Of a stretch of 64,000 bases of DNA, positions 1,862 to 58,787 are shown piece after piece. Both the position numbers and the translations under genes were made by a program. Origin of the DNA: Actinomycetota bacterium (lineage in GTDB: Bacteria > Actinomycetota > Acidimicrobiia > Acidimicrobiales > JAJPHE01); NCBI GenBank assembly GCA_027315345.1, contig DAHUYE010000067.1, forward strand, positions 62,001 through 126,000, written 5' to 3'. The notes under the pieces are model-generated. The model saw only the letters and a list, made by a program, of their open reading frames with translations. It was not told the origin of the DNA and ran no database searches. Each line of letters opens with the position of its first letter. Position 1 is the first letter of the stretch.

Positions 1862-2473
1862 CTGCTCCGGCACCGCCGCGGTACCCCGGCCGACCTGCTG
1901 GCGGTCGGCCTGGGCAACCCTGGGTCCGAATACGCCCGGAGCCGGCACAACCTGGGGGCCATGGTGGTCTCCCTCCTGGCCGAGCGCCACGGGGAGCGGC
2001 TCCGTCACTCCCGTAGCGACCATGCCCTGGTGGCCGAGGCCCAGGTGGACGGTCGCCGGCTGGCCCTGGCCTTCCCCCAGACCTATATGAACGACTCCGG
2101 GCTGGCCGTGCGCAGCCTGGTCCGCCGCTTCGGCATCGAGGACCTGGCCCGGCTGGTCATAGTCCAGGACGAGCTCGATCTGCCGGCCGGAGTGGTGCGG
2201 GTGAAGGCCGGCGGCGGCCTGGCCGGCCACAACGGGCTGCGTTCGATCGAGGCCCATCTGCACGACCGCGGGTTCACCCGGGTGAGGATCGGCATCGATA
2301 AGGCCCCGGGTCGCAACCGCCGCCCCGGTGACGGGATCGGTCACGTCCTGTCCGCCCCGTCCAAGCGGGAGCAGGAGGACCTCGACGCCGCCGTGGAGAC
2401 CGCCGCCGACGCCGTCGAGCACATCCTCGCCCACGGCGTGGATGCGGCCATGAACCTCTACAACTCCCGATGA
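1862..2473 (+). CDS. pth: Peptidyl-tRNA hydrolase, apparently starting at CTG
   Basis: Recycles peptidyl-tRNA released from stalled ribosomes. From CTG 1862 the product is 203 residues, the normal length. It carries the Pth motif GLGNPGSEYARSRHN with the catalytic Asn19 and His29 (Asn10 and His20 in E. coli Pth), the QDELDLP loop and GGLAGHNGLRS. There is no ATG, GTG or TTG in frame upstream of ATG 1961, and starting at 1961 would delete both catalytic residues. GAGG at 1851-1854 sits 7 nt before the CTG. The stop overlaps the mfd start as ATGA. The function is secure; the exact start is inferred. Confidence 0.92.
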   Translation: MLRHRRGTPADLLAVGLGNPGSEYARSRHNLGAMVVSLLAERHGERLRHSRSDHALVAEAQVDGRRLALAFPQTYMNDSGLAVRSLVRRFGIEDLARLVIVQDELDLPAGVVRVKAGGGLAGHNGLRSIEAHLHDRGFTRVRIGIDKAPGRNRRPGDGIGHVLSAPSKREQEDLDAAVETAADAVEHILAHGVDAAMNLYNSR

Positions 2474-5400
2474 CCGAGCTGCTCCACCGCCTCCCGCCCC
2501 TGCTGCGGGCCGAGCCGGCGTTGGTGTCCATGGCCGGCAGCTCCAACGGGGTGCTGGCCGTGTCGGAACCGGCCCGGGCTATCACCGTGGCCGGCCTGGC
2601 CCACCTGTCCTCCCGCCATCCCATCCTGGTGGTCCTGCCCGCCCAGGCCGACGCCGACCGGCTGGCCCACGACCTGGGGGCGTTCCTGGGCCCGGAGGAG
2701 GTCGAGTCCTTCCCGGCCTGGGAGACGCTGCCCTTCGAGCGGGTCAGCCCGGCGGTGGAGACCATGGGCCGCCGGCTGCGGACCATCTGGCGGCTCCGGG
2801 AGGGCAACCCGCCCCGGGTGGTGGTCTCCACCGTCAAGGCCTTGATCCAGCGCCTGGGCCCGGGCGCCTGTGACCAGCAGCCGGTGGTGATCCGCGCCGG
2901 GGACACCCTGGACGAGGAGACGCTGGTGGCGGGGCTGGTGGCCATGGGCTACCGGCGGGAGTACCAGGTCGAGCACCGGGGCGAGGTGGCCGTGCGGGGA
3001 GGGATAGTCGACGTCTTCCCCTCCACCGCCGATGCCCCGGTCCGCATCGACCTCTGGGGCGATGAGGTCGATCGGCTGACCGAGTTCGACGTGTTCGATC
3101 AGCGCTCCACCCAGGAGCGGACCGAGGTGGAGATCTTTGGCTGCCGGGAGGTGCTGCCCGATGAGGCAGTGCGCCGGCGGGCGGCCGAGCTGATCGGCGC
3201 CGAGCCCTGGGCCCGGGAGCAGTGGGACCGGCTGGCCGAGGGCCTGGTCTTCGACGGCATGGAGTCCTGGCTGCCGTGGCTGGCGGAGGAGGAGATCCTC
3301 CTGCCCGATCTTCTGGGGGAAGACGCCCAGGTCCTCCTGGTCGAGCCCAGGCGGATGCGGGACCGGGCCTCCGAGGTACTGGATGAGGAGGCCGCTCTGG
3401 CTGCGACCCTGGCCCAGACCTGGGCCGGGGCGACCGAGCGGGGTTTCCCCCCCCTGCATCTGGCCTTCGAGAGAATGCTGGCCCGCACCTCGGCTCCGGT
3501 GTGGTCGATCACCAACACCCCCGACCGCCCGGACACGCCGGCCGTCGACGCCACCGGATGGGATCCGGTCGTCGGGGACGCCTCCCGCCTGGTCAGCCGC
3601 CTGGCCGGCCTGGCCGCCAACGGCTTCCGGGTGGTGGTCTGCGCCGACGGCCCGGGCAGCGCCGAGCGGGTGGGGGCCTCCCTCCAGGAGGCCGGCCTGG
3701 TCCTGCGCCGCCGCCTGGATCCCGATGTCGAGCTGGCCGAGGCCGAACCGGAACCCGGTCTCACCCTGACCGTCTCCCCGGTGGAGCGGGGTTTCGTGCT
3801 CAACGCCGCCAAGGTGGCCGTGCTGGCCGAGTCCGACGTCACCGGCCGGCGCCGCGCCCATCGACGGCCCCGGGCCCGGTCCCGCTCCATCGACAGCGGC
3901 TTCTTCGACGACCTCAAAGCCGGTGATTACGTCGTTCACCACCAGCACGGGGTGGCCCACTACGGCGGGATGGTGACGCGCTCCATCGGGGGAGCCGAGC
4001 GCGACTACCTGCTGCTCGAGTACCGGGGCGGGGACAAGCTCTACGTCCCTTCCGACCAGATCGACGCCGTGACGCCCTACACGGGCGGGGAGACCCCGAC
4101 CCTGTCCCGCATGGGCGGCGCCGATTGGGAGCGGACCCGCAGCCGGGTCCGCTCGGCGGTGCGGGAGATCGCCCAGGAGCTGGTCGTCCTGTACCGGCGA
4201 AGGGTCACCACCCCGGGCCACGCCTTTCCTCCCGACACGCCGTGGCAGGTGGAGATGGAACAGGCCTTCCCCTTCACCGAGACCGCCGATCAGGCCAAGG
4301 CCATCGAGGCGGTCAAGGAGGACATGGAACAGGCCGTGCCCATGGACCGTCTGGTCTGCGGGGATGTCGGTTTCGGTAAGACGGAGGTGGCCATCCGGGC
4401 CGTGTTCAAGGCCGTCCAGGACGGACGCCAGACGGCCGTGCTGGTGCCGACCACTCTGCTGGCCCAGCAGCACTTTCAGACCTTCTCGGATCGCTTCGCC
4501 GGCTATCCGGTGCGGGTCGAGGTGCTCTCGCGCTTCTTGACCCCGGCCCAGGCCCGGGCCGTGGTGGAGGGGCTGGCCACCGGGGTGGTCGACGTCGTGA
4601 TCGGCACCCACCGCCTGCTGTCGGGCGACATCAAGTTCCACAACCTCGGCCTGCTGGTCGTGGACGAGGAGCAGCGCTTCGGCGTCACCCACAAGGAGGC
4701 CATCAAGGCCCTCCGGACCGACGTCGACGTCCTCACCCTCACCGCCACGCCGATCCCGCGCACGTTGGAGATGAGTCTCACCGGCATCCGGGACCTGACC
4801 CTGCTCAACACCCCGCCGGCCGAGCGCCAGCCCATCCTCACCTATGTCGGTGAATACGACGAGCGCGCCGTCTCCGAGGCCATCCGGCGCGAACTGTTGC
4901 GCGAGGGCCAGGTCTTCTTCGTGCACAACCGGGTGCGCGACATCGAACACACCGCCCGGCGCATCCGGGAGCTGGTGCCCGAGGCCAGGGTGGCCGTGGC
5001 CCACGGGCAGATGGACGAGGGCACCCTGGAACGGGTGGTGCTCGACTTCTGGGAAGGCGCCTTCGACGTGCTGGTCTGCACCACCATCATCGAGTCCGGC
5101 ATCGACATGCCCACCGTCAACACCCTGGTCGTGGACCGGGCCGATCGCCTGGGCCTGGGCCAGCTGCACCAGCTGCGGGGCCGGGTGGGCCGGGCCGGTC
5201 AACGGGCCTACGCCTATCTCTTCTTCCCTCCCGATATGTCCCTGTCGGAGGAGGCCTACGAGCGTCTGCGCACCATCGGGGAGCACACCGAACTGGGCTC
5301 GGGTTTCAAGATCGCCATGCGCGACCTGGAGATCCGCGGCGCCGGCAACCTGCTCGGGGCCGATCAGTCCGGCCATATCGCCGCCGTCGGTTACGACCTG

Positions 5401-5916
5401 TACGTGCGCATGGTCAGCGAGGCGGTGGCCGAGCTCAAGGGGGAGGAGGCCCGGCCCCCGGCCGAGATCAAGCTGGACCTGCCCCTCGACGCCCACCTGC
5501 CCGTGGACTACGTGGAGCGGGAGGACTTGCGCCTGGAGGCCTACCGGCGCCTGGCCGGGGTCACGACCCAGGCCGAGGTGGACGACATAGCCGCCGAGTG
5601 GGCCGACCGGTTCGGGCCCGTCCCCGAGGCCGCCCAGGCCCTGCTCCGCGTCGGCCGGCTCCGGGCCGAGTGCGCCCGGGTGGGGGTGACCGAGGTGAGC
5701 GTGGTCAAGCCCCGGGGCATGGCCAGCAGCCCGTCCACGGCCCGGATCAGCCCGCTGTTCCTGCGTACCAGCGCCGAGATGCGTCTGCGCCGCCTGGCCC
5801 CCAAGTCCGTGTACAAGGCCGACATCGGCCAGATCGTGGTCCCCATCCAGCCCAAGGCCGACCCGGCCGAGGCTGTCACCGTCCTCCTGGGCGAGTTGGT
5901 GCCCCCCGAGGAGTGA
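2470..5916 (+). CDS. mfd: Transcription-repair coupling factor
   Basis: ATP-dependent translocase that removes RNA polymerase stalled at DNA damage and recruits UvrA. At 1148 residues it is full length. Order: UvrB-like UvrA-binding region (about 1-330), RNA-polymerase-interacting domain (about 480-560, with [15 protein letters not shown]), RecG-like helicase lobes with Walker [10 protein letters not shown] near 632, motif II DEEQRFG near 735 and motif [13 protein letters not shown] near 905, then the C-terminal TRCF domain. The ATG start overlaps the pth stop by 4 bp. A 1210-codon open frame on the opposite strand is a GC-driven shadow. Confidence 0.98.
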
Positions 5917-5967
5917 GGCCGGCCCGGCGCCGGCCGGCGTGGGCGCAGAGGCCGGCCCGGCGCCGGC
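5915..5967. repeat. 20-bp direct repeat after mfd
   Basis: The 20-bp word starting GAGGCCGGCC and ending GGCGCCGGC occurs at 5915-5934 and again at 5948-5967, 33 bp apart. Each copy is nearly self-complementary and could form a GC-rich hairpin. The first copy overlaps the mfd stop codon. It may act in termination or RNA processing; there is no T-tract. Confidence 0.6.
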
Positions 5968-6016
5968 TGTGGCCGCTCCGGGGCGGGTGAGCAGGGTCGC
6001 TAACCTGCGCCCCACC

Positions 6017-7072: not shown

Positions 7073-10452
<3,380 letters not shown>

Positions 10453-16856: not shown

Positions 16857-17674
16857 TCCCCGCTGCCTTCGACTACGTGCGGGTCGACTCGGTCGACGCC
16901 GCCGTGGCCGCCCTCACCGAGCACGGGGACGACGCCAAGCTGCTGGCCGGGGGGCACTCGCTGCTGCCGCTCATGAAGCTGCGCCTGGCTTTTCCCTCCG
17001 TGCTCATCGACATCGGGCGTATCGAGGGCCTGTCCTACGTCCGCCAGGAGGGCGATCAGGTGGCCATCGGCGCCCTGACCCGCCACTGCGACGTCAACGC
17101 CTCCCCCGAACTGGCCCGACACGCCCCCCTGCTGGCCTATGTGGCCGGCAAAGTCGGCGATCCCCAGGTCCGCCACCGTGGCACCATCGGCGGTTCCATC
17201 GCCCACGCCGACCCCGCCTCCGATCTGCCCGCCGCCGTGCTGGCCCTGGGAGGCGAGATGGTGGTCACGGGTCCCTCGGGCCAGCGCGTTATCCCGGCCA
17301 CCGAGTTCTTCACCGGTTTCCTGGAGACGGCCATGTCGCCCGAGGAGATGCTGACCGAAATCCGGGTGCCCACGGCCACGGCCGGGCACTCCTACCAGAA
17401 GTTCGTGCGCCGGGCCCAGGACTGGGCCATGGTGGGCGTGGCCGTGGCCCGCTACGACGGCACCACCGGCGTGTCCCTGGTCAACATGGGCCCCACCCCC
17501 CTGCGGGCGGCAGCGGTGGAGTCGGCCCTGGCCTCGGGGGCCTCGGCGGCGGACGCCGCCGAAGTGGCCGATCAGGACAGCGAGCCGACCGGGGACGCCA
17601 ACGCCAGCCCCGAGTTCCGCCGCCACCTGGCCAAGGTGCTGACCCGCCGCGCCCTCGAAGAGGCCGGCCTCTGA
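16853..17674 (+). CDS. FAD-binding medium subunit of the molybdenum hydroxylase (CoxM type)
   Basis: Passes electrons from the Fe-S clusters to FAD and onward. The 273-residue protein has the two FAD loops of the family, AGGHSLLP near 32-39 and [16 protein letters not shown] near 111-126, and a C-terminal CO-dehydrogenase flavoprotein domain. Start at GTG 16853 overlaps the coxS stop (GTGA). Its own stop overlaps a CTG that appears to start the next gene (CTGA). Together with the two preceding genes it makes a complete heterotrimer. Confidence 0.95.
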
Positions 17675-18573
17675 GCCCGGCCGATCCGGAGGAGGTCCGG
17701 GCGGCCCTGGAGGCCCACGACTACTTCTCCGACGAAGGCCTGGCCACGGCCGTCTTCCTGGCCCTGCGCCTGCGCCGGCCGCTGTTCCTGGAGGGCGAGG
17801 CCGGGGTGGGCAAGACCGAGGTGGCCAAGGTGCTGGCCCGCTGGACGGGTGGGGAGCTCCTCCGCCTGCAGTGCTACGAGGGCATCGACGTGGCCCAGGC
17901 CGTGTACGAGTGGGACTACTCCCGCCAGCTGCTGCACCTCCGAGCCGCCGAGCTGGCCGGGACCGGTGCCGACGTGGCCGCCCGGGCCGAGGACGAGTTG
18001 TTCTCGGAGCGATTCCTCATCCGCCGTCCCCTGCTCCAGGCCATCGCCGATGCTGTCGATGACCGCCCTCCGCCCGTCCTGCTCATCGACGAGGTGGACC
18101 GGGCCGACGATGAGTTCGAGGCCTTCCTCCTGGAGATCCTCTCCGACTACGCCGTCACCGTGCCCGAGTTGGGCACCTTCACGGCGGCCGTGCCCCCGGT
18201 GGTGGTACTCACCTCCAACCGGACCCGGGACGTCCATGACGCCCTCAAGCGGCGCTGTCTCTACCACTGGGTCGAGCACCCCGACTTCGAGCGCGAGGTC
18301 CGCATCGTGCTGCGCCGGGTCCCCGAAGTGGAGGAGGGCTTGGCCCGCCAGGTGGCGGCGGCGGTCAGGAAGATGCGCGGTCTTGGTCTGTACAAGCCGC
18401 CCGGGGTGGCCGAGACCATCGACTGGGCCCATGCCCTGGCCATCCTGGGCCGGACCCGTCTGGACGAGTCGGTGGTCGACCGGACCCTGGGCACCGTCCT
18501 TAAGTACCGGGAGGATGCCGAGCGGCTCCGGGCCGGGGGCCTGGAGGACCTCCTCGAGGCGGCCGGTGCCTGA
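17671..18573 (+). CDS. MoxR/CoxD-like AAA+ ATPase, apparently starting at CTG
   Basis: CoxD-like ATPases help mature the active site of CO-dehydrogenase-type enzymes. The 300-residue product has Walker A GEAGVGKT (42-49), Walker [12 protein letters not shown] near 130-140, a sensor Asn in LTSNRTRD, and the MoxR C-terminal lid. The first in-frame ATG, GTG or TTG after the coxM stop lies inside Walker A, and none is available near the proper N-terminus. CTG 17671 forms a CTGA overlap with the coxM stop, and AGAGG at 17659-17663 lies 7 nt upstream. The start is therefore inferred as CTG. A VWA partner follows. Confidence 0.88.
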
Positions 18574-29284: not shown

Positions 29285-30337
29285 TCAGGTTTCGGCGGGA
29301 CGGCGAACCACCGCCGCCGACCGGCGGAAGAAGTTCTCGACGTCGCGCTCATAGGTGTAGGCCGGCCGGCTGGCCCCGACCGATCGGCGCAGACGGCGGG
29401 CCTGGGCGAAGGATTCGATGGCGCCGGCCGAAGTCCAGCGGTAACGGAAGCCGGCCGCCTTCAGCTTGCGGTTGTCTATGCCCCGCCCATAGCGGAGCAG
29501 ATCGAGCAGCTCCGGGGGGAGGTCGGTGAGGCCCAGCGAACTGAGCACACCGGCGGTCAGGCCGGTGAGGACCGGGGGCAGCATGGGCACCAGGCGCACG
29601 CCGCAGATGTGGGCCACCTCACTCCAGGGGATGCGACCGTCCCCGGCCACGTTGTAGACGCCCTGGAGCTGGCGGTCGAAGGCGAAGTGAAGGCTGCGGA
29701 TGACGTCGTCCTCCTCCACGAACTGCATGAGGGGATCGAAGCCCAGGATGGCTGGGGCGACGCCCGTCTCGAGGGCTTTTGAGATGGGGGTGACTATGTC
29801 GGTGCCCAGCACGTTGGCAAAGCGCAGCAGGGTGACGGTCACGTGCGGATTGTCCACGGCAAAGTCCCGCAGGTAGCTCTCCACCTCCACCAGCGACCTC
29901 TCCACCCGGCTGACCGGCGGCGCGGTGCGCTGCATGGTCTCCCGAAACCAGGCCGGGTCCTGCATGGAAGAGCCGTAGACGAGGGAGGAGGACTTGACGA
30001 TGATGTGGCGAACCGAGCTTTCGGCTGCCCCCGCCGCCGCCAACAGGTTCATGGTGCCGATGACGTTGGTCTCGTGGAGCTGCCGGCCGCTCATGTGGGT
30101 CGAATCCACCACCAGGAAGGTGTGCACGATGGTGTCGATCTGGGTGGCTTTCACGATGCGGGCCAGGATGGAATAGCTCTGGTCGGCCCGCACGTACTCG
30201 GTCCGCTCCAAGGGAACCTTGGGCCCTTCGACATCCAGGCCGATGATGTGGTCGACGTCCCGGTCCGCCTCCAGGGTCTGGGCCATCCGGCCACCCCAGA
30301 AGCTGCCCAGCCCGGTGATGAGGACCCGCTTACCCAA
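29285..30337 (-). CDS. Extended SDR / NAD-dependent epimerase-like protein without YxxxK
   Basis: The 350-residue protein has the Rossmann motif VLITGLGSFWGGRMA near 5-19 and the family strand VKSSSLVYGS. The catalytic Tyr-x-x-x-Lys of active SDRs is not visible; the expected place reads VERSLVEVE, with Val and Leu instead. It may bind NAD and a ligand without redox catalysis, or use another residue. TTG 30337 is used here; CTG 30346, which overlaps the acyltransferase stop as CTGA, is an alternative. A similar epimerase-like/acyltransferase pair is known from mycobacteria (recalled, not searched). Confidence 0.85.
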   Translation of the reverse strand: MGKRVLITGLGSFWGGRMAQTLEADRDVDHIIGLDVEGPKVPLERTEYVRADQSYSILARIVKATQIDTIVHTFLVVDSTHMSGRQLHETNVIGTMNLLAAAGAAESSVRHIIVKSSSLVYGSSMQDPAWFRETMQRTAPPVSRVERSLVEVESYLRDFAVDNPHVTVTLLRFANVLGTDIVTPISKALETGVAPAILGFDPLMQFVEEDDVIRSLHFAFDRQLQGVYNVAGDGRIPWSEVAHICGVRLVPMLPPVLTGLTAGVLSSLGLTDLPPELLDLLRYGRGIDNRKLKAAGFRYRWTSAGAIESFAQARRLRRSVGASRPAYTYERDVENFFRRSAAVVRRPAET

Positions 30338-41506: not shown

Positions 41507-44500
41507 TCAGACCGCTTCCCGGGTGACGTCATAGGACCTCCACAGGGAGGCGTAGGTCCCCCCGGCCCGGATGAGATCCTCGTGGTTTCCCTCCTCGATG
41601 ATGCGGCCCTGGTCCACCACCGCGATCCGGTCGGCCAGGCGGGCCGTCTGCAGGCGATGGGCGATCAGGACGGTGGTCCGCCCCGAGGACATCTGGCGCA
41701 TGGCCCTGGTCACCCTGGCCTCGGTGGACAGGTCGAGGTTGGCGGTTGCCTCATCCAGCAGGAGGATGGCTGGGTCGACCAGGTAGGCCCGGGACAGGGC
41801 GATGAGCTGGCGCTGGCCTATGGACAGCGAGCGGCCGCGCTCGGTGACCACGTGGTGGTAGCCGCCGGGCAGCCGGGCGATGAAGTCGTGGGCGTCCATG
41901 GACCGGGCCGCCCACTCCACCTCGGCGTCGGTGGCATCGGGCCGCCCGTAGGCGATGTTGTCCCGGATCGAGCCCCCGAAGAGGAAAGCCTCCTGGGGCA
42001 CCACCCCCAGCTGGCTCCGGTAGGCGGCCATGCCCATGTCGGTGAGGGGGATCCCGTCGACGAGTACCCGGCCTTGGTTCGGGTCATAGAACCGGGCGAT
42101 GAGCTTGACGATGGTGGACTTCCCTGACCCGGTCTCGCCCACCAGAGCGAGGCTCGTCCCGGCTTCCACGTGCAGGTCGGCGCCGCACAGGGCGTCGGTG
42201 ACGCCCTGGGGATAGCGGAAGCGGACCCCCTCCAGCCGGATCTCGCCCCGCAGCCGGGCCGGCGGGAGCACCGGCCGGTCCGCCTCCGGGGTGGAGACCG
42301 GGGTGGCCATCAGCTCCCGGATCTTGGTCATGGCCGCTTTGGCCTGTTGGTAGGAGTCGAAGATCTGGGACATCTGCTGGACAGGGTCGAAGACTTCATC
42401 GATGTAAAGGATGAAGGCCAGTAGCGACCCGGCGCTGACCAGGCGGTGCTCGAGGAGATAGGCGCCGTAGGCCAGCACCAGGGCCTGGGCGCCGACTTCC
42501 AGGAAGTTGACGAAGGGGAAGAACATGGACTGCAGACGGATGGTCTCCTGCCGCGAGCTGCGGTAGGCATCGGCCAGGCCGTGGAACTGGGTCATGTTCC
42601 GGCCCTCCCGCACATAGGCCTGAGAAACCCGGACCCCGGAGATGTTCTCCTGCAGGTTGGCGTTGACGGCCGCGATCCGCTCCCTCACGGTGAGATAGGC
42701 CCGCTCCGATCGGTGCCGGAACCATTGGGTGGCCGCCCCCAGCGGGACCATGATGATCATGACCAGCAGGGCCAGACGGACACTCATGACGAAGAAGATG
42801 AGACAGCCTCCGGCCAGCTGCATGAGGCTGACCACGCCGTTGACGACGCCGTTCTGGAAGAGGGACTGGAAGGCTTCCACGTCCGAGCCCATCCGGGTCA
42901 GCACCCGTCCCGCCATCTCCCGCTCGTAGTAGTCCATCCCCAGCCGCTGGAGGTGGGCGAAGATGCGGATGCGCAGGGTGTACAGAAGCTCCTGCGTGGT
43001 GCGCCCGGTGTAGAGGTTCTCCACCCGGTTGATCCACAGGTCGGCCAAGGTGAAGACCAGGTAGGCCACTGCGGCGGCCCAGACGATGGACAGGGCGTGG
43101 TCGGTGGCGCCCCGGTCGACGCCGGACTTGATCAGATAGGGACCTACCAGGGTGCCGGCCACGGTGTCGGCCATGGCCAGGAACAGCGCCCCCAACAGCC
43201 GGCGGCGGTAGGGCCCGAAGATGGTGCGCAGGCTGAAGTCGGGCTGGGGGGCGGCGGCGGCGCCGGCGTCGCTGAAGGGTGAATCCACGATGGGAGGCAG
43301 CTTGGCCAGGGCGGCCCGCACCCGGGGGCCGGCCGGCACCCCGCCGGCCATGAGCCGTCCTCCGCCTCCGCCGCCCCCGCCCATGCCGTGCCCTCCGCCA
43401 CGGCGCGTGCCCATCCAGCCGGGAAGGCCCAAGGCGGGCCCGGCGGTGCCGTCTTCGGGGGCGGCCCAGGCCGACGGGGTCACCACCCCGGTGAAGCGGT
43501 GGGGGACACCCTCGTTGTCGGAGGGATCGCCCTCGACCGCGGTGGCAAAGGGGCCCAAACGGGCACCGGGCGAGGACGCCCCCACCAGCGCCTCGGTCAG
43601 CTCGGAGGCGTCATCCTCATCCGGGGCATCGATAGGGCCGTCCTCGGGCCCGGCCAGCAGCCGCCGGTAGAGGGGACAGCGCCCGATCAGTTCGTCATGG
43701 GTGCCGGCGTCGACCACCCGACCCCCGTCGATGACGACTATCCGGCTGGCCAGGTCGAGGGTCGAGCGGCGATGGGCGATGAGGACGGTGGTCCGGCCCG
43801 GCAGCAGTTCCCGCAGGGTCCGGTGAATCTCCTCCTCGGTCCGCACGTCGATGGAGGAGGTGGCATCGTCCAGGATCAGGACGGAGGGCCGGGTTATGAG
43901 AGCCCGGGCCAGGGCGATCCGCTGGCGCTGCCCTCCGGAGAGGGTGTAGCCGCGCTCACCGACCACCGTGTCGTATCCGTCGGGCAACTCGGTGATGAAC
44001 CCGTTGGCGCCGGCCGCCCGGGCCGCCTCTTCCACCTCGGCGTCGCTGGCATCGGGCCGAGCGAAGGCGATGTTGGCTCTGACCGTGTCGGAGAAGAGGA
44101 AGGACTCCTCGAAGACGACCCCGATCTGGCTGCGCAGGGACGCGGTGGTCAGGTCGCGGACATCCCGCCCGTCGACCAGGACGGCTCCGTCCTGCACGTC
44201 GTAGAAGCGGGGCAGGAGCAGGGAGATGGTCGACTTACCCGACCCGGAGCCGCCCACCAGAGCCACCGTCTCCCCGGCCTGGACGGTTAGGTCCAGAGTC
44301 CGGAGGATGGGGCTGGACCTCATGTAGCCGAAGGTCACCTGCCTGAGCTCGATCTGGTGGTCGACGCTCTCGAGCACGCCGGCCCCGGGCCGGTCGCTGA
44401 CGAAGGGCGTGGAGTCCAGCAGCTCGAAAATCCGCTCGGCCCCGGCCCGGGCGTTCTGGGCCTGCACGCTGAAGTTGGCCAGGGAGCGGGCCGGGCCCAC

Positions 44501-45439
44501 CAGCTGGGCCAGGTAGATGTTGAAGGCCAGGAAGGTGCCCAGGGACAGGTGACCCCGGTAGACCATGTAGCCGCCCACGGCCAGGATGGCCACCTCGCCC
44601 AGAGTGGGGATGGTCGACAGCGTCGGCTGGTAGCGGTTGACGATTCGGATGTTGCGCATCCGGGTCCCGAACAGGACGGCGGCCCGTTGCTTGAGCTGGG
44701 ACAGTTCCCGATCCTCCTGGCCGAAGGCCTTGACGACCCTGACCCCGTAGACGGCCTCCTCCACCACGCCGGCCAGCTCGGCGGTGCGCTGCTGGGCGTC
44801 CCAGCTGGAGGCGAAGGTCCACTGGCGCATACGCCAGGACACGAAGGCGATGGCCGGCACACACAGCAGGACCACCACGGTCAGGAGGGGGGACAGGAAC
44901 AGGGCGATGGTGAGGGAGATGACGAACTGCAGGACGTTGCTGGTCGTGATGGGCAGCAGCATCATGAGGTTCTGGACCAGGTTGACGTCCGAGCTGGCCC
45001 GGCTCACCAGCTGGCCGGTCTGCATGTCGTCGTGGCGGGCGAAATCCAGCCGTTGGAGGTGGTCGAACAGCGCCGTGCGCAGGTCGTAGTCCACCCCCAG
45101 GCTGATCTGGCCGGCGCTGTAGCGGCGCAGGTAGGCGAAGGCGAACTGGAACACGGCCAGGCCCAACAGGATGAGGATCAGGCCGGTCACGCCGTGATCG
45201 CTGGTGATCACCAGGTGGCTGGAACCCGAACCCGCTCCCTTGACGGCCACCACGTCATTGACGATGGCCCGGGGCAGCAGAGGCAGGACGCTGGTGGCCC
45301 CCATACTCATCAGGGCGGCGAAGACGGCCAGGGCGAAGCGGCCCCTCCTCCTCACCATGAGTTGGATGAGGCGCCGGGCCCAGGCCCGGCCCGGGTCCTC
45401 GGCATCGTTCTCGGGGCCTGGCGGCCGGCTGATAACCAG
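41507..45439 (-). CDS. Fused heterodimer-type ABC exporter, apparently starting at CTG
   Basis: One 1310-residue chain with two membrane-ATPase halves. NBD1 has GGSGSGKST, LSGGQ and a Walker B ending LILDD, so the catalytic Glu is Asp. NBD2 has GETGSGKST, a variant signature LSIGQ, and Walker B LLLDE. This predicts one degenerate and one active ATP site, as in TM287/288-type exporters. A linker of about 120 residues contains a Gly-rich run. ATG 45358 would remove the conserved elbow helix (ARRLIQLMVRRRGRF). The only codon that keeps it is CTG 45439, right after an in-frame TAA and with GGAGGG 4 nt upstream. The substrate is likely a lipid or drug. Confidence 0.9.
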   Translation of the reverse strand: MVISRPPGPENDAEDPGRAWARRLIQLMVRRRGRFALAVFAALMSMGATSVLPLLPRAIVNDVVAVKGAGSGSSHLVITSDHGVTGLILILLGLAVFQFAFAYLRRYSAGQISLGVDYDLRTALFDHLQRLDFARHDDMQTGQLVSRASSDVNLVQNLMMLLPITTSNVLQFVISLTIALFLSPLLTVVVLLCVPAIAFVSWRMRQWTFASSWDAQQRTAELAGVVEEAVYGVRVVKAFGQEDRELSQLKQRAAVLFGTRMRNIRIVNRYQPTLSTIPTLGEVAILAVGGYMVYRGHLSLGTFLAFNIYLAQLVGPARSLANFSVQAQNARAGAERIFELLDSTPFVSDRPGAGVLESVDHQIELRQVTFGYMRSSPILRTLDLTVQAGETVALVGGSGSGKSTISLLLPRFYDVQDGAVLVDGRDVRDLTTASLRSQIGVVFEESFLFSDTVRANIAFARPDASDAEVEEAARAAGANGFITELPDGYDTVVGERGYTLSGGQRQRIALARALITRPSVLILDDATSSIDVRTEEEIHRTLRELLPGRTTVLIAHRRSTLDLASRIVVIDGGRVVDAGTHDELIGRCPLYRRLLAGPEDGPIDAPDEDDASELTEALVGASSPGARLGPFATAVEGDPSDNEGVPHRFTGVVTPSAWAAPEDGTAGPALGLPGWMGTRRGGGHGMGGGGGGGGRLMAGGVPAGPRVRAALAKLPPIVDSPFSDAGAAAAPQPDFSLRTIFGPYRRRLLGALFLAMADTVAGTLVGPYLIKSGVDRGATDHALSIVWAAAVAYLVFTLADLWINRVENLYTGRTTQELLYTLRIRIFAHLQRLGMDYYEREMAGRVLTRMGSDVEAFQSLFQNGVVNGVVSLMQLAGGCLIFFVMSVRLALLVMIIMVPLGAATQWFRHRSERAYLTVRERIAAVNANLQENISGVRVSQAYVREGRNMTQFHGLADAYRSSRQETIRLQSMFFPFVNFLEVGAQALVLAYGAYLLEHRLVSAGSLLAFILYIDEVFDPVQQMSQIFDSYQQAKAAMTKIRELMATPVSTPEADRPVLPPARLRGEIRLEGVRFRYPQGVTDALCGADLHVEAGTSLALVGETGSGKSTIVKLIARFYDPNQGRVLVDGIPLTDMGMAAYRSQLGVVPQEAFLFGGSIRDNIAYGRPDATDAEVEWAARSMDAHDFIARLPGGYHHVVTERGRSLSIGQRQLIALSRAYLVDPAILLLDEATANLDLSTEARVTRAMRQMSSGRTTVLIAHRLQTARLADRIAVVDQGRIIEEGNHEDLIRAGGTYASLWRSYDVTREAV

Positions 45440-45490
45440 TTATCCCTCCGGGAGCGGCCCTTGGCGCCGGTGGGCCGCTAAAGAAGTTCC

Positions 45491-47451: not shown

Positions 47452-49752
47452 TCAGGCCTCGGGGGCGGCCACCGCCGCCCCCGACCCGATCAGCGAGGTT
47501 ATGTCGGCCTCGCTCAGCCCCGCCTCGGCCAGCACCGACCGGGTGTGCTGGCCCAGGCCGGGGGCCACCAGGGTGGCTTCGGTCTCGGTCCGGCTGAAGC
47601 GGGCCAGGCGATGGGTCGTCCACCAGCCGGCCCGGTCGGGACGGGGATCGGCCCGGAGGAATCCGAAGGCGGCCAACTCGTCATCCTCAGTGAGGTCCCG
47701 GGGGTTGGGCACGGCCACGGCCGGGATGGCAGCCGCCCCCAGCCCGTCGGGGGCTGTCCTTGTGGCCTGAGCCGCCAGCACCTGGCCGAGCGGGGTGCCG
47801 GCGCCGCCGAGGGCCTCGGCCACCTCGGCCGGCGGGAAGTCGCTCTGGATGCGGATCCAGCCGTCGGCGGTGGGGAAGAAGCCGTCAGTGCCGGCGCCGG
47901 AGGGTCCCCGGTGGTCGCGGCCGCCCCGGCGGGGTTCGGGCCGGCCCCGGTACCGGACCAGATCAGGACTCTGGAGCAGCGCCGACATGGCCGCCAGCGA
48001 GGTCCAGACGTGCTGGCCGCCTCCGCCCCGGCTGCGGTGGAACAGGGCCAGGCAGGCGCCCAGGGCCGACACGGCCGCGGCGGTGACGTCGTTGACGGGG
48101 ACGGTCAGGAATACCGGCTCGCTGTCCCCGCCCTGAGCGATCATCATCCCGCTCATGGCCTGCAGGACGGGATCAAAACCGGCCTCGGCGCCCAGCGGCC
48201 CGGTGGTGCCGAAGCCGGTGATGGTCAGGGTGATGATGGCGGGGTTGACGGCGGTCAGGTCGGCGTGGGTGAGGCGCAGCCGGCCCAGGACCCCGGGGCG
48301 GTAGTTGTCGATGACGACGTCGGCGCCCTCCACCAGTCGGAGCAGGGCATCGCGCCCGGCCGGCTGCTGGAGGTCGAGCGAGATGCCCCGCTGGCCCTTG
48401 TTGTAGGCGGCGAAGCCCGGTCCCCGGAAGCTGTCCCCGCCGGGCGGCTCCACCTTGATCACCTCGGCGCCCAGTTCGGCCAGCAGGGAGCCGGCGAAGG
48501 GGCCGGCGATGATGGCCCCGAGATCGATCACTCTCACCCCCTTCAGGGGTCCCGCCCGTCCCGGCCGCCGGTCGGTGGCGCCGTTGGCGGCAACGCCGGC
48601 CCCGGAGTCGGGGTCCCCGGAGGCGGCCCGCTCCGGCCCGTCGGTCCAGATGCGCGGGGGGGAGGAGCCGATGGCGGGTGCCGGGCCGCCCACCCGGGCC
48701 GGACTGCCGGTGAGGTTGAGGGCGACTCCCGGCATCACCACCCGGCCCCGCGGCGGGTCCTCGACCTCCGCCCGCATGCCGATGGCAGCCAGCTGGGGGT
48801 GGTCGAGCCAATCCTGGCGGGAGAGCAGCGGTCCGGCCGGGCAGCCGGCGGCGGCCAGGGCGTCCAGCCAGTCCTGGCGGGGCCGGCCGGCAAAGACGGC
48901 GGCCATCTCCTCGATGACCCAGGCGGCATTCTCGGGGCGGAGGATGGCGGCCCGGCCCCCGCCGCCGAGGCGGGGGTCCTCGGTGAGGCCGGCCATGCCC
49001 AACACGGCGAAGGCCCGCTGGCTGAAGTGTGGGGTGAGGGCGGCCAGGAAGAGCCACTCCCCGTCGGCGCAGCGGTAGGGGCGGTAGAACGGCACCGGTC
49101 CGCCCGGGCCACCCAGGCGGGGCCCGTCCCGGGCCGGTTCCGGGGCGGAGGCATCGAAGGTGAAGGCGGCCGAGCCGGCCACCCCGGCGGCGTGGACGCC
49201 GCCGACCTGCACCACCTGGCCCTGCCCGCTGGTCAGCCGTTCCCGCAGGGCGGCCACGGCGGCGGCGGCGGCCCAAGCCCCCTGGATGACGCTCAGGCAG
49301 GGCACGATCATCTCCACCGGGCCGCCGTCGTAGGAGGCCTGCCGCAGGCCCAGCCCGGAGGCGGCCCAGGCCAAGGCGTCGGAGTTGGCGCCCCCCGCCC
49401 AGGGGGCGTCACCCGTGAAAGGCCCGAGGTGGATGAGGAAGGCCGAGGCGGGGTCGGCCCGGTGGGTGTCGAGGTCGAAGGGGGTGCCGGCCAGGGACCG
49501 GGCCGGTCCGTCCAGGAGGACAGCGTCGGCGTGGCGGGCCAGGCCCGCCGCCTCCGGGCTGGCGGGGCCGGAGGCGGCCACGCTGCGCTTGCCCCGGTCC
49601 CAGACGGCCCGGCCCGGGTCGGACTCCCGGGGCGTACCCGGGGCCTCGATCCGGACCACGTCGGCTCCGAAGTCGGCCAGGAACATCCCGGCCACCGCCC
49701 CGGCCGTGCCGGTGGTGCAGTCGAGGATCCGCAGACCCTCCAGGGCGCTCAG
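47452..49752 (-). CDS. Two-domain class III CoA-transferase (CaiB/BaiF type), apparently starting at CTG
   Basis: A 766-residue protein made of two CaiB/BaiF domains. The first begins LEGLRILDCTTGTAGAVAG and continues MFLADFGADVVRIEAPG. The second begins near 390 with LKGVRVIDLGAIIAGPFAG and LLAELGAEVIKVEPPGGD. Family members move CoA between acyl groups; the substrate is unknown. The only in-frame ordinary start, GTG 49695 (codon 20), would cut off the first conserved strand. CTG 49752 overlaps the upstream diiron-protein stop as CTGA. The operon is tetR, diiron protein, this gene. Confidence 0.88.
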   Translation of the reverse strand: MSALEGLRILDCTTGTAGAVAGMFLADFGADVVRIEAPGTPRESDPGRAVWDRGKRSVAASGPASPEAAGLARHADAVLLDGPARSLAGTPFDLDTHRADPASAFLIHLGPFTGDAPWAGGANSDALAWAASGLGLRQASYDGGPVEMIVPCLSVIQGAWAAAAAVAALRERLTSGQGQVVQVGGVHAAGVAGSAAFTFDASAPEPARDGPRLGGPGGPVPFYRPYRCADGEWLFLAALTPHFSQRAFAVLGMAGLTEDPRLGGGGRAAILRPENAAWVIEEMAAVFAGRPRQDWLDALAAAGCPAGPLLSRQDWLDHPQLAAIGMRAEVEDPPRGRVVMPGVALNLTGSPARVGGPAPAIGSSPPRIWTDGPERAASGDPDSGAGVAANGATDRRPGRAGPLKGVRVIDLGAIIAGPFAGSLLAELGAEVIKVEPPGGDSFRGPGFAAYNKGQRGISLDLQQPAGRDALLRLVEGADVVIDNYRPGVLGRLRLTHADLTAVNPAIITLTITGFGTTGPLGAEAGFDPVLQAMSGMMIAQGGDSEPVFLTVPVNDVTAAAVSALGACLALFHRSRGGGGQHVWTSLAAMSALLQSPDLVRYRGRPEPRRGGRDHRGPSGAGTDGFFPTADGWIRIQSDFPPAEVAEALGGAGTPLGQVLAAQATRTAPDGLGAAAIPAVAVPNPRDLTEDDELAAFGFLRADPRPDRAGWWTTHRLARFSRTETEATLVAPGLGQHTRSVLAEAGLSEADITSLIGSGAAVAAPEA

Positions 49753-52699: not shown

Positions 52700-52714
52700 C
52701 GCCCGAGTGGGAGG

Positions 52715-54900
<2,186 letters not shown>

Positions 54901-54906
54901 CGGAGG

Positions 54907-54940
54907 AGGGTAGCATCTGGTTGCTTGTAGTCAGCAACCA
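54907..54940 (-). promoter_or_regulatory. marR promoter and operator
   Basis: On the minus strand TACCCT (54912-54907) is followed by 6 nt and the marR GTG. Upstream lies a perfect 8-bp inverted repeat, TGGTTGCT-N7-AGCAACCA (54918-54940), whose minus-strand sequence TTGCTG could be the -35 box with a 19-nt spacer. A repressor bound there would block RNA polymerase. Confidence 0.65.
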
Positions 54941-54994
54941 AGTTGGCGCCAGCCCCGGAACGCGCCCGGCTCCGCCGGCGGACAAGCTGGACCC

Positions 54995-55321
54995 ATGTCC
55001 ATCGTCAAGATCAATGCCATCACCGTGCCGGCCGGGTCCGGAGACGAGCTGGCCCGGCGCTTCGCGGCCCGGGCCGGCGCCGTGGACGGCGCCGCCGGCT
55101 TCGAGGGTTTCCAGCTCCTGCGTCCCACCGATGACCGCTCCACCTGGCTGGTGGTCACCCACTGGCAGGACCAGGCGTCCTTCGATGCCTGGGTGGCCTC
55201 ACCGGCCTTCGCCCATGGCCACCGGGGTGCTGGCGCCGCCGGGGCCGAGGGCCACGCCGTGGCCAGTGGCAGCGAGCTGTGGTCCTACGAGGTGGTGGAT
55301 CTACCCCGCCCGGGCGGCTGA
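54995..55321 (+). CDS. MhuD-like haem-degrading monooxygenase (ABM fold)
   Basis: The 108-residue protein closely resembles mycobacterial MhuD, which opens haem to release iron. It shares the start KINAITVPAG, with Asn7, and FQLLRP and VVTHW, with Trp66. The haem-ligand His75 of MhuD corresponds to His74 or His76 here, because one residue is missing in PAFAHGH. Haem degradation is therefore likely but not certain. It is divergent from the marR operon. Its last 21 bp overlap a crotonase gene on the other strand. Confidence 0.8.
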   Translation: MSIVKINAITVPAGSGDELARRFAARAGAVDGAAGFEGFQLLRPTDDRSTWLVVTHWQDQASFDAWVASPAFAHGHRGAGAAGAEGHAVASGSELWSYEVVDLPRPGG

Positions 55322-55960
55322 GGACGACCGGCGTAGCTGGCGCCGGGCCTCGGCCATGACGGCCGGATCGACCTCCGCCAGCCGCCGGGCCAGGGCCAGG
55401 GCGGCGGCGTCCACGTCCTCCACCACCTGGTGGACCAGGCCGGCGGCCAGGGCCTCGGCCGCCGGGACGTTCTCGGCCATCATCACCAGCCCGGCCGCCC
55501 GCGCCGGCCCGACCGCCCGGGTGAGGGTCTGGGATCCTCCGGCGGAGGGGAGCATCCCGAGCTTGGTCTCGGGCAGGCCCACCACGGTGTCGGGGCCGGC
55601 CAGCCTGAAGTCGCACATGAGGGCCATCTCGAAGCCCGCCCCCAGGGCGTAACCGTGGAGGGCGGCCACCGACGGCTTGTCCGAACCGAGCAGCTCCGAC
55701 CACGGATCGCGCCGCCAGCGGATGCGCCGGGCCTCGAAGATCGAACCGGCCGAGCCGAACTCCCCCAGGTCGGCGCCGGCCGAGAAGTGCCGGCCCGCGG
55801 CGGCCAGCACCATGGCCCGCACCTCGGGTAGCTGCCTGACGGCCCTGAAGGCTTCGATCAGCTCGTCTCTCATTTCCAGGTTGTAGATGTTGAGGGCTTC
55901 GGGCCGGTCCAGCACTACTCGGGCCACGGCTCCGTCCACCTCCAGGCGGACGGCGCTCAT
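55301..55960 (-). CDS. Enoyl-CoA hydratase/isomerase family protein
   Basis: Crotonase-fold enzyme of 219 residues, shorter than usual (about 260). It has RHFSAGADLGEFG near 61-73 and ALHGYALGAGFEMALMCDFRLA near 102-123, and a catalytic Glu in GLPETKLGML. The C-terminal trimerisation helix region is brief. ATG 55960 overlaps the CoA-transferase stop as ATGA, so it is the last gene of a three-gene operon of acyl-CoA enzymes. Confidence 0.9.
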   Translation of the reverse strand: MSAVRLEVDGAVARVVLDRPEALNIYNLEMRDELIEAFRAVRQLPEVRAMVLAAAGRHFSAGADLGEFGSAGSIFEARRIRWRRDPWSELLGSDKPSVAALHGYALGAGFEMALMCDFRLAGPDTVVGLPETKLGMLPSAGGSQTLTRAVGPARAAGLVMMAENVPAAEALAAGLVHQVVEDVDAAALALARRLAEVDPAVMAEARRQLRRSSSAARAG

Positions 55961-57516
55961 GGTTCCCCCGGTGCCGCTGCCGCCACCGGCACTGCCCGGA
56001 ACGGGCTTGCCGGGTAGAGATGGAACCCGGCCCCGTCCCGCCGGGCCTCCACCGCCCCGCCGACCCTGGCGGCGGCCAGGAGCCGAGCCCCGAGATCTTC
56101 CGGCGCCGGGGGCCAGGCCCCGGCCGGTTCGGTCAGCAGAGGTTCGACCGTGGCGGCCAGGCTTACCTCCAGATGCCCGGGACACCATCCGGCCTCCCGT
56201 CCGGCCAGGGCGGCCATGACCGTGGCCGCCGCCTCCAGGCCGGCCAGCGGGTCCGGGTAGCTGGTGGCGGGAAGGGCCGGTCCGATGCCGCCCGGAGCGG
56301 CGCCGTCCCCACCGAGGCCGCTGAGGGCGTGGATACCGTTTCCGTAGGCGACCCAGTCCCGGGCCGGGCCCGGAGGGAAGGCCGGCATCGACACCGTCAC
56401 GGAGGGGGGCCGGCCGGAGCCGGGGCCTCCGGGGCCGAGGCCGGCGCGGTCCAGGCCCAGCTGGGGCATGACCCGGGGGGAGAACGAATCGATGACGACG
56501 TCGGCGGAGCGGGCCAGTTCCCGCAGCCGGGCGGCATCCTCGGTGGCGTCAAGATGTACCAGCTCTTTACCGGCGTTGAGGGCGTTGAAGATGGCGGAGT
56601 CGTCCCCGCCTGAACCCCGGGTCCGCCCGCCCGGCCGGATCCCCCGGCCCGACCGGGCCCGGGTCCCGTCCGGACGCGAGGGCGGTTCCACCTTGATCAC
56701 GGTGGCGCCCAGCCGGGTCAGCAGACAGGTGGCGAGGGGCCCGGCCCACATGGCGGTCAGGTCACAAACGGTGACTCCCTGGAGGCCCGCCCGTCCGCCC
56801 GGCAGCGCCGGTAGGTCCCTCCCGGCCTGGCGCCGGCCCGGGCCGGGCCGGCGCTCATCGGGAGCCGGGCGCCAGGGCGGATTACCCCCCGGAGCCGGGG
56901 CCCGGTAGTCGCAGACCGGGAGCCGCCAGGCCTGGGCGGCGGCGGCCACGGCGGGGGCGTCGGCGTCCGGGCCCAGGGTTTCCAGCAGGCGGGCGAAGGC
57001 GTCGGCGTCGCCCGGCGCCCCCAGGTCGGCGTTGACCCATCCCCCTCCCGGGGCCGGCCGCGGGGCCGGCGGCCGGGGCCACCAGGACGAGCCGTAGGAG
57101 GCGCCCATGACCGCCGGTAGGTGCAACTGGATGAGTACGGACAGAGGATCAACGTCGATGGCCCGTCCCTCCAGCCATCCGGCCAGGGCGGCGGCGGCCA
57201 GGGCCCGGCCCAGTGCCAGGTCGGTCACCCCGGGGGGCAGGCCGGTGGCAGCCAGGATGGCCAGGCGGGGGTCCAGCCGGCCGAGTCTGGCTTCGGAGTG
57301 CCGCCCGGCCCCGGTGAGGGTGACGCCCGCCGGGCCGGCCTCCCGACCGTGCGCTCCCGGCGCTCTCGACGCCGGGGCGCCCGCCCCCACCGAGGGCGCC
57401 TCTCCTTCCGCCCCCAACCCGAGCAGGAGGCTGAGGGCAAAGGCCCCCGCCTTCGACGGCGGGGTGTTCGACGGCGGGGTGGGGCCGGCCCGGAAGCCGG
57501 TCAGGGGCGGGATCAC
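55957..57516 (-). CDS. CoA-transferase family III protein with atypical domain order
   Basis: A 519-residue protein in which the canonical CaiB/BaiF opening (LQGVTVCDLTAMWAGPLA, then LLTRLGATVIKVEPPSRPDG) appears only near residue 290. It is followed by an incomplete domain of about 230 residues. The first 280 residues are Ala/Pro/Gly-rich and lack this motif; they may be a degenerate or permuted CoA-transferase half. The GTG start overlaps the upstream crotonase stop (GTGA). Activity is uncertain. Confidence 0.8.
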   Translation of the reverse strand: MIPPLTGFRAGPTPPSNTPPSKAGAFALSLLLGLGAEGEAPSVGAGAPASRAPGAHGREAGPAGVTLTGAGRHSEARLGRLDPRLAILAATGLPPGVTDLALGRALAAAALAGWLEGRAIDVDPLSVLIQLHLPAVMGASYGSSWWPRPPAPRPAPGGGWVNADLGAPGDADAFARLLETLGPDADAPAVAAAAQAWRLPVCDYRAPAPGGNPPWRPAPDERRPGPGRRQAGRDLPALPGGRAGLQGVTVCDLTAMWAGPLATCLLTRLGATVIKVEPPSRPDGTRARSGRGIRPGGRTRGSGGDDSAIFNALNAGKELVHLDATEDAARLRELARSADVVIDSFSPRVMPQLGLDRAGLGPGGPGSGRPPSVTVSMPAFPPGPARDWVAYGNGIHALSGLGGDGAAPGGIGPALPATSYPDPLAGLEAAATVMAALAGREAGWCPGHLEVSLAATVEPLLTEPAGAWPPAPEDLGARLLAAARVGGAVEARRDGAGFHLYPASPFRAVPVAAAAPGEP

Positions 57517-58250
57517 CGACCGGTGAAGCGTGGTTCCCGCTTCTCGAAGAAGGCGGCCAGGCCCTCGGCCCGGTCGGAGGAGGCCTGAAGGAGATGGTTG
57601 AAGTCGGCCTCCAGCCGCAGGGCCTCCGTCAGGGGCAGCCCGGCTCCCCGCCACACCGCCTCCTTGGTGTACTCGAGGGCGAGTGGGCCCCGGCCGGCCA
57701 GGAGGAGGGCGACTTCGGCCGCCCGGGCGGCCGGATCAGGCGCGGACTGATGGGCCAGGCCGATGGCCACCGCCTCCTCACCCCCCACCTCGGCACCGAG
57801 CAGCACCATCGGCGTGGCCCGGGCCGGACCCACCACCCGAGCGGTCAGCCAGGCGGCGTTCCATCCCGGCAGGGCTCCCTCCACCACCTCGGGCAGGGCG
57901 AACCGGGTGGTGGGAGCCACGATGCGAATATCCGCAGCCAGGGCGATGGCCATCCCGAGGGACCGGCAGGCCCCCGGGACACAAGCCACCACCACCCGCC
58001 GTGACGCCAGCAGACGGGCAGGGGGGTCCAGTCCCGAGGTATCGGTCCGGAGGTCCTCGGCCACCCCGGTGCAGAAGTCCCCGCCGGCGGGGGTGAGGAC
58101 GATGACCCTGGTCTGGTCGGAGTCGTCCTCGGCCAGCTCCCCCAGCGCATCCTCCAACTCCAGGGCGGAGCGCCGGTCGAGGGTTCCACCCGGCAGGGTG
58201 AGGGTCGCCACCCGGCCGGACCGGGTCAGCTCCACCTGGCTGCGCTGCAC
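57513..58250 (-). CDS. Crotonase-fold protein
   Basis: First gene of the minus-strand acyl-CoA operon, 245 residues. Crotonase features include TLTLPGGTLDRRSALELEDAL near 15-35, DFCTGVAEDLR near 62-72 and VPGACRSLGMAIALAADIRIV near 96-116. The usual oxyanion pattern (A/S-G-A-D-L) reads TGVAEDL and is weaker. It lies divergent to the PH-domain genes with a 48-bp gap. GTG 58250 is used; GTG 58235 is possible. Confidence 0.85.
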   Translation of the reverse strand: MQRSQVELTRSGRVATLTLPGGTLDRRSALELEDALGELAEDDSDQTRVIVLTPAGGDFCTGVAEDLRTDTSGLDPPARLLASRRVVVACVPGACRSLGMAIALAADIRIVAPTTRFALPEVVEGALPGWNAAWLTARVVGPARATPMVLLGAEVGGEEAVAIGLAHQSAPDPAARAAEVALLLAGRGPLALEYTKEAVWRGAGLPLTEALRLEADFNHLLQASSDRAEGLAAFFEKREPRFTGR

Positions 58251-58286
58251 CCGGGGATCATCGCGCCTGGGGCCGGGAGGCCGATC

Positions 58287-58292
58287 TACCGT
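58287..58292 (+). promoter_or_regulatory. Leaderless-type -10 box of the PH-domain pair
   Basis: TACCGT is followed by GCGGGG (6 nt) and ATG 58299, matching the leaderless pattern; the GCGGGG is a poor ribosome-binding site. Confidence 0.5.
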
Positions 58293-58298
58293 GCGGGG

Positions 58299-58787
58299 AT
58301 GGGTGACCTCGGGCCGTTCGGCTCCGATCCCGGTTGGCGGACACCGTCGGGCCGGCTCTGGCGGATGCGGGTTTGGGAGGCGCTGGGGACCGGCGTGATT
58401 CTGGCTCTGCTGATCGGAGGCGCCGTGATGACCACCAGCGTTGGGGCCGGTCTGGCCGTGCTGGTGGGGATCCTGTTGGTGTCGGTCGCGTCCCTGTGGT
58501 TCCTGCACCGGCGGTTCCGGGCCTGGCGCTACCTGGAGCGGGCCGAGGATCTGGTCGTGGTCCGCGGGGTCATGCTCCGGCGCCTCTCGGTGGTGCCCTA
58601 CGGCCGCATGCAGTACGTGGATGTCACCGCCGGGCCGGTGGAGCGGCTCTTCGGCCTGGCCACCGTCAAGCTGCACACCGCCGCCGCCGCCAGCGACGCC
58701 CGCGTTCCGGGTCTGGAGCCGGCCGAGGCGGCCCGGCTGAGGGACCAGCTGGCCCGTCTGGGCGAAGCCAAGGCGGCCGGGCTCTGA
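58299..58787 (+). CDS. PH-domain membrane protein, YdbS-like
   Basis: The 162-residue protein has a basic N-terminus, two hydrophobic helices (about 30-48 and 50-67) and a bacterial PH domain of the YdbS type (about 78-145, with VVRGVMLRRLSVVPYGRMQYVDV). Such proteins sit in the membrane next to YdbT-like partners; in Bacillus the pair gives resistance to some antimicrobial peptides. Its stop overlaps the CTG of the next gene (CTGA). Confidence 0.86.
   Translation: MGDLGPFGSDPGWRTPSGRLWRMRVWEALGTGVILALLIGGAVMTTSVGAGLAVLVGILLVSVASLWFLHRRFRAWRYLERAEDLVVVRGVMLRRLSVVPYGRMQYVDVTAGPVERLFGLATVKLHTAAAASDARVPGLEPAEAARLRDQLARLGEAKAAGL

Follow-up and report, generated by a model that had tools for sequence, protein, structure and literature searches.

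Apparent regular use of CTG as a start codon in a lineage of Acidimicrobiales

Introduction

Where does translation start in a gene whose conserved N-terminus lies upstream of every ATG, GTG and TTG that could serve it? This question is raised by several genes in a 64,000-nucleotide stretch of actinobacterial DNA, here called the window (positions 62,001 to 126,000 of contig DAHUYE010000067.1, assembly GCA_027315345.1; G000:C57:62001-126000 in our numbering), in which six CTG codons had been proposed as starts. The source assembly G000 (3.84 Mb, 106 contigs) is placed in the Acidimicrobiales, and the gene for peptidyl-tRNA hydrolase (pth) in the window is nearest to records from the Acidimicrobiales or Acidimicrobiia. 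The window has a G+C content of 70.5% and is overlapped by 57 genes called with a codon-usage gene finder. All six CTG codons are found where they had been predicted, at positions 1862, 17671, 30346, 45439, 49752 and 58784, as are the CTGA overlaps at four of them (17671, 49752, 58784 and 30346). Comparison with related genomes supports five of the six starts, strongly for pth, a CoxD-like ATPase and a CoA-transferase and moderately for an ABC exporter and a YdbT-like protein. Judged from the sequences, CTG is thus very probably a genuine and regularly used start codon in this lineage, most probably read by the ordinary initiator formylmethionyl-tRNA (fMet-tRNA) with the help of sequence context.

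Results

The pth leader in the window and across the order

The case of pth is defined by three features of the window:

1862..2473, plus strand: pth, probable CTG start at 1862; based on the pth match and a leader free of ATG, GTG and TTG
1851..1854, plus strand: GAGG, a Shine-Dalgarno (SD)-like motif 7 nucleotides (nt) before CTG 1862, within the end of the ribosomal L25 gene; seen in the sequence
1857..1859, plus strand: TAG, stop codon of the ribosomal L25 family gene (1134-1859) that precedes pth, with 2 nt between it and CTG 1862; seen in the sequence

The open frame of pth extends back to position 1292, and the earliest ATG, GTG or TTG (hereafter canonical codons) anywhere in this frame is located at 1961. 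In the pth translation this codon falls past the VGLGNPG and RHN motifs, which we take to have a catalytic role. Counted from CTG 1862, the Pfam and NCBIfam matches begin at residue 13, and the alignment to the two best solved Pth chains begins at residues 4 and 11.

The gene was matched in 57 of 59 genomes, including its own. In each leader, canonical codons and CTG were sought between the upstream in-frame stop (or over 40 codons) and the conserved core. For the order and class, 70 of 71 loci were matched and two exact duplicates were dropped, leaving 68; some of the records are titled just 'Actinomycetes' or 'bacterium' and were counted in by similarity. The controls comprised 51 loci outside the class and 24 loci from other Actinomycetota, with seven in both sets and 68 distinct loci altogether; the 51 include at least nine Actinomycetota, seven of them also among the 24. 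Hereby, 25 of the 68 order and class loci have CTG as their only candidate, 42 have a canonical codon and one has neither. A CTG-only leader occurs in 0 of the 51 loci outside the class and in 0 of the 24 other Actinomycetota, all of which have a canonical codon (25/68 versus 0/68 controls, Fisher P = 4e-9; versus 0/24 Actinomycetota, P = 1.4e-4). The latter comparison is the fairer one, because low-GC controls carry more canonical codons by chance. As a separate observation, the locus with neither type of codon before the core (L340, from G034) may use another start codon or start at the core itself.

An upstream stop lies within 40 codons in 53 pth loci, 19 of which have no canonical codon. 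In 16 of these 19, CTG is placed at most three codons from the stop (binomial P = 6e-11); over the rest of these leaders, 13 of 258 codons are CTG. The other 34 stop-bounded loci have a canonical codon, the first of which lies at most three codons from the stop in 14 (GTG 8, ATG 5, TTG 1); among the remaining 20, three have CTG in the stop-adjacent slot and a canonical codon later. Common leaders read GAGGGC-TAG-CTG or GAGGGC-TAG-CCG-CTG, and in the 25 CTG-only loci a GAGG-like motif is found 5-8 nt before the CTG in 14, 10-11 nt in three and 12-14 nt in four, with none in four. The distance from the upstream stop to the CTG is 3, 5, 6, 9 or 11 nt, and the two are in frame in some loci and out of frame in others. 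One CTG-only locus with TAG directly followed by CTG (L037; Acidiferrimicrobium sp. IK, NZ_JAIMCB010000019.1) belongs to a record that is not titled as a metagenome-assembled genome.

The miaA junction outside the window

A further gene with an apparent CTG start was flagged by the gene finder elsewhere in G000:

L250:5786-6703 (G000 C50:5786): miaA, apparent CTG start that overlaps the stop of a MiaB-like gene as CTGA

The preceding gene is MiaB-like by its radical SAM match and weak TRAM and UPF0004 matches. Counted from the CTG, the P-loop GPTASGKS of miaA starts at residue 11, the next canonical codon lies 34 codons in, and bacterial MiaA structures align to the product from residues 2 to 5. 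We examined this junction in 30 loci, counting in-frame NTGA overlaps where the upstream frame spans 60 codons or more. The overlap is CTGA in seven genomes from five families (G000, G001, G002, G007, G012, G056 and G058), GTGA in seven loci, TTGA in G040 and ATGA in G030, and 12 of the 30 loci have no such overlap. The raw CTGA count was nine, from which L421 (CTGATG) and L422 (ATG available) were removed. Before residue 7, eight of the 30 loci are CTG-only, one has no NTG codon and 21 have a canonical codon; L420, one of the eight, is a poor case with the CTG 33 codons before the core. In G020 (L413), neither a canonical codon nor CTG precedes the miaA core, and a GTGA overlap lies at the core; this locus, too, may start there or use a different start codon.

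The CoxD-like ATPase and the CoA-transferase

Two further genes of the window show a canonical-free N-terminus together with an overlap:

17671..18573, plus strand: CoxD-like/MoxR AAA ATPase, probable CTG start at 17671 in a CTGA overlap with the preceding gene; based on the canonical-free N-terminus and on overlaps in relatives
17660..17663, plus strand: GAGG motif 7 nt before CTG 17671; seen in the sequence
47452..49752, minus strand: two-domain CaiB-type CoA-transferase, probable CTG start at 49752 in a CTGA overlap; based on the canonical-free N-terminus and Pfam

In the ATPase gene, which follows a gene resembling the flavoprotein subunit of CO dehydrogenase, the next canonical codon lies 45 codons in, inside the GEAGVGKTE loop (which contains residue 46), and the nearest one upstream lies 277 codons back, within the preceding gene. 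Four of 30 CoxD loci are CTG-only (G000, G001, G002 and G020), and the junction reads CTGA in six loci, GTGA in two, TTGA in one and ATGA in one, with none in 20. In the CoA-transferase gene no ATG, GTG or TTG occurs from the upstream stop to 49695, which is 19 codons in, and the Pfam CoA_transf_3 match begins at residue 4. Its relatives offer only near matches, GTG in G002 and TTG in G001, two to three codons upstream of the place of the CTG.

The ABC exporter, the YdbT-like protein and the SDR

The three remaining proposals are less uniform:

41507..45439, minus strand: two-halved ABC exporter, probable CTG start at 45439, not coupled to a same-strand upstream gene; based on the SD motif and relatives' alignments
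45445..45449, minus strand: GGAGG, the exporter's SD motif, 5 nt upstream of its CTG; seen in the sequence
58784..60151, plus strand: YdbT-like bPH protein, probable CTG start at 58784 in a CTGA overlap, alternative GTG at 58811; based on relatives' overlaps
29285..30337, minus strand: atypical SDR, start at TTG 30337 rather than CTG 30346; based on 27 of 29 relatives

An in-frame TAA is located directly upstream of the exporter's CTG, and among 29 relative loci all 14 with an N-terminal alignment align upstream of the alternative ATG at 45358. The exporter N-terminus is not alignable to orthologues for a same-codon comparison, and the numbering of its Pfam match omits the first three residues. 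The next called gene upstream is divergent; if this start is accepted, coupling to a preceding gene is therefore not required for CTG initiation. In every other case in the window, a same-strand upstream gene abuts or overlaps the start. Apart from its start, the exporter is predicted to be one chain of 1,310 residues (41507-45439), with two membrane-plus-ATPase halves and a glycine-rich stretch between them.

For the YdbT-like gene, the four nearest relatives overlap the preceding frame by TTGA, TTGA, GTGA and GTGA. In L274 other canonical codons intervene, the overlap being 26 codons further upstream; L277 and L278, two relatives at a greater distance, have no NTGA overlap. For the SDR, an ATG, GTG or TTG is found exactly at TTG 30337 in 27 of 29 relatives, in some right after an in-frame stop. 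Because of these relatives, which start three codons further on than CTG 30346, we assign the start to TTG 30337 and reject the CTG.

The original prediction had stated that no canonical codon gives an intact N-terminus in four genes, and this holds for pth, the ATPase and the CoA-transferase; for the exporter it was overstated. Of the two starts it had called probable, that of YdbT is borne out by the relatives' overlaps and that of the SDR is not. Its suggestion that orthologues should keep the CTG, or carry ATG, GTG or TTG at the same codon, agrees with what is seen at pth, CoxD and YdbT and at miaA outside the window, and fails at the SDR.

Start codons in a genome-wide sample

A purpose-written codon-usage gene finder was applied to samples of four genomes, 741 kb from G000, 250 kb from G040, 200 kb from G008 and 400 kb from G080; G008, from the same order, and G080, a 9.2-Mb genome from the same phylum, were used as controls. 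As raw CTGA counts are misled by many CTGATG sequences, only clean junctions were kept, i.e. those in the NTGA frame relation with no canonical codon within six codons on either side; a coding boundary within six codons was taken as a match. Hereby, a coding boundary coincides with the clean CTGA in 10 of 12 cases in G000, 2 of 5 in G040, 1 of 5 in G008 and 1 of 6 in G080 (G000 versus the 2 of 11 of G008 and G080 together, Fisher P = 0.003). The other overlaps of G000 coincide with a boundary in 20 of 24 (ATGA), 17 of 24 (GTGA) and 7 of 11 (TTGA) cases. The 10 of 12 include doubtful cases, since C57:91288 (29288 in the window) probably starts at an ATG seven codons on, near a GGAGG. Five clean CTGA junctions are no more than candidates, with the next canonical codon 7-29 codons off (C57:33764, C30:32253, C30:62904, C4:1400 and C8:4236); for C30:32253, a MurT-like gene, a GTG at residue 30 may be the start.

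Genes without an acceptable canonical start (above 6 nats) number 17 of 431 (G000), 8 of 155 (G040), 5 of 113 (G008) and 18 of 241 (G080), and by this deficit G000 does not stand out from the control G080. At the boundary of such genes, a CTG accompanied by an SD motif or an overlap occurs in seven cases in G000, two in G040, one in G008 and three in G080, and the seven include pth, CoxD, the CoA-transferase and miaA. We estimate that CTG starts about 1-2% of genes, as a lower bound, and makes up about one tenth of the starts in 4-nt overlaps.

Distribution on the tree

CTG users were labelled by hand from the pth, miaA and CoxD results, which gave 18 labelled genomes, one of them outside the tree. 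In a four-gene tree of 35 genomes, eight of the nine rows of the clade of G000 (SH-aLRT 100) start one or more of the three genes with CTG. Over the whole tree, whose resolution is weak (5 of 32 inner branches starred), 17 of 35 rows have such a start, and the distribution takes nine changes versus 12.1 in shuffles (36 of 500 as low), which is suggestive of clustering.

Discussion

What the sequences show for these CTG codons is their position, their conservation among relatives, their interchange with ATG, GTG and TTG and their SD or coupling context; the first base of the overlap is C, T, G or A in CoxD and C, T or G in YdbT. The prediction of regular CTG use in the lineage is in this way supported by several genes (pth, miaA, CoxD and YdbT) and several genomes. 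As to the mechanism, we infer that CUG is decoded in vivo by the initiator fMet-tRNA. The ordinary tRNA would pair at codon positions 2 and 3, so that the proteins would begin with formyl-methionine. Initiation would be secured by context, either through a GAGG or GGAGG SD motif about 5-8 nt upstream or through termination-reinitiation at a 4-nt NTGA overlap or a few nt from the previous stop. Pairing of this kind, with the reading frame normal, is described in the excerpted text of PMC11497404 for the structure of a tRNA-fMet M1 variant on CUG; those complexes are like our proposal in the pairing of fMet-tRNA, and differ in coming from E. coli with a variant tRNA. The same excerpt states that CUG initiates inefficiently in E. 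coli.

Several observations weigh against regular CTG use. Only 12 of the 31 CTGA-frame pairs in G000 are clean, and many of the others read CTGATG, where ATG is the likelier start. G040, a user of CTG at pth, reached just 2 of 5 at clean CTGA junctions, and the combination of SD motif and CTG in the canonical-less genes of G000 is barely above background (2 versus 1), i.e. there is no general enrichment. In a free 64-codon expectation-maximization start model, CTG fell outside the 14 top codons in G000 and likewise in G040 and G080; this model was set aside as too noisy, rare codons absorbing much of the weight. Eight of the 25 CTG-only pth loci have no SD-like motif or one 12-14 nt off, the exporter's ATG 45358, 27 codons downstream of the CTG, still precedes the Pfam domain, and the CTG of the SDR had to be given up. 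Finally, according to the excerpts of the respective papers, initiation sites in M. tuberculosis are not enriched for CTG (PMC9094748), and CTG accounted for 0.03% in a mycobacterial reporter selection (PMC4633059).

One alternative would place the true starts at ordinary ATG, GTG or TTG codons elsewhere, either downstream or upstream inside the preceding gene, and regard the CTGs as chance leucine codons of a GC-rich genome. This is true for the SDR and likely at CTGATG junctions, the exporter and YdbT offer the alternatives ATG 45358 and GTG 58811, and pth leaders contain CTG at other places than beside the stop. For four genes of G000 (pth, miaA, CoxD and the CoA-transferase), however, the conserved core has no canonical codon close enough on its upstream side. 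Moreover, the stop-bounded pth leaders are fully bracketed and mostly show the CTG beside the stop, so that for these loci and for miaA ordinary starts are hard to hold unless the N-terminal motifs are dispensable. We therefore regard this explanation as improbable for the set as a whole, and slightly less probable still is a fusion product, made without any initiation when ribosomes from the upstream gene shift frame or read through its stop. The close same-strand neighbours in the window would suit a fusion, but in the relatives' pth loci the CTG stands at varying distances from the upstream stop and in different frames relative to it, the miaA junction of relatives carries ATGA, GTGA or TTGA, and the exporter has a divergent upstream gene and an SD motif before its CTG. 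That canonical starts were broken by sequencing or assembly errors is hardly credible: most of the named loci do come from metagenome-assembled genomes, but many separate assemblies, the Acidiferrimicrobium record among them, have the same codon in that position.

A further possibility refines rather than contradicts the use of CTG, namely that initiation at CUG is made efficient by a changed initiator tRNA, initiation factor 3 (IF3) or rRNA. The canonical anticodon arm of the initiator tRNA was found in 47 of 59 genomes; no match to the exact pattern was obtained for 6 of the 18 labelled users, G000 and G001 included, versus 6 of 41 others (Fisher P = 0.16), and CTG use is concentrated in the G000 clade. 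In G000 and G001 this absence is indistinguishable from a gap in the bin. Since 12 of the 18 labelled users, among them G002, G007, G020, G030, G040, G050, G056 and G058, do have the canonical arm, an altered anticodon stem lacking the three G-C pairs seems unnecessary. The IF3_C domain was detected in 57 of 59 genomes (120 bits in G000), with one IF3 of ordinary score in both G000 and G002. A changed apparatus appears rather unlikely. Somewhat less unlikely, though still doubtful, is the broader idea that the clade has lost most discrimination against CUG, perhaps via IF3, initiator tRNA modification or 16S rRNA; CTG would then be a fourth standard start genome-wide, and many public N-termini would be misannotated.

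The use of CTG by ordinary fMet-tRNA can be compared with known systems, here as given in excerpts of the cited papers. Isolated CTG starts have been described in plasmid repA and the overlapping gene ano, at three alternative start sites detected by Ribo-seq in E. coli, and in rpsL of Deinococcus deserti (PMC5960689). Our cases are alike in that CTG initiates single bacterial genes, but here the same genes use it in several families of one order. The 4-nt overlap layout with a variable first base is the same as in the GTG and TTG starts with NTGA coupling of Actinobacteria (PMC9581028), whereas here C occurs as well, in seven loci versus seven with G at the miaA junction. A survey of start-codon evolution counts two AUG-to-CUG switches among 61,358 ancestral AUG starts (PMC5622118); that survey, too, treats CUG as a possible start, and in this order CTG exchanges with GTG, TTG and ATG at pth, miaA and CoxD. 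Among the matches listed in the open-access literature, with subscription papers mostly outside this scope, we found no report of lineage-wide CTG use in Acidimicrobiia. Thus, single-gene CTG starts are known, and regular use across a lineage looks new.

Gene-finding programs that ignore CTG would misplace these starts, housekeeping genes included. As tools such as StartLink take only ATG, GTG and TTG as starts (PMC9581028, as excerpted), they would truncate genes like this order's pth and miaA past their conserved N-terminal motifs or miss them. Routine CTG users occurring beside non-using relatives would also offer a test of start-codon discrimination, through comparison of their ribosomes, IF3 and initiator tRNA.

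Additional observations

An automatic ortholog-based scan for forced starts was discarded, as it flagged 173 of 276 genes; the excess may be due to shadow conservation of overlapping genes in other frames. In the control G008, the free 64-codon model gave CTG a weight of 0.049, though CTG starts in this genome are not supported by its clean CTGA junctions (1 of 5), and among the genes examined G008 showed none. Outside the window, an acyltransferase-3 family gene of G000 (L319:17638-18870; C30:97638) shows a CTGA overlap, with its Pfam match from residue 23 and the next canonical codon 33 codons in, and probably starts at this CTG.

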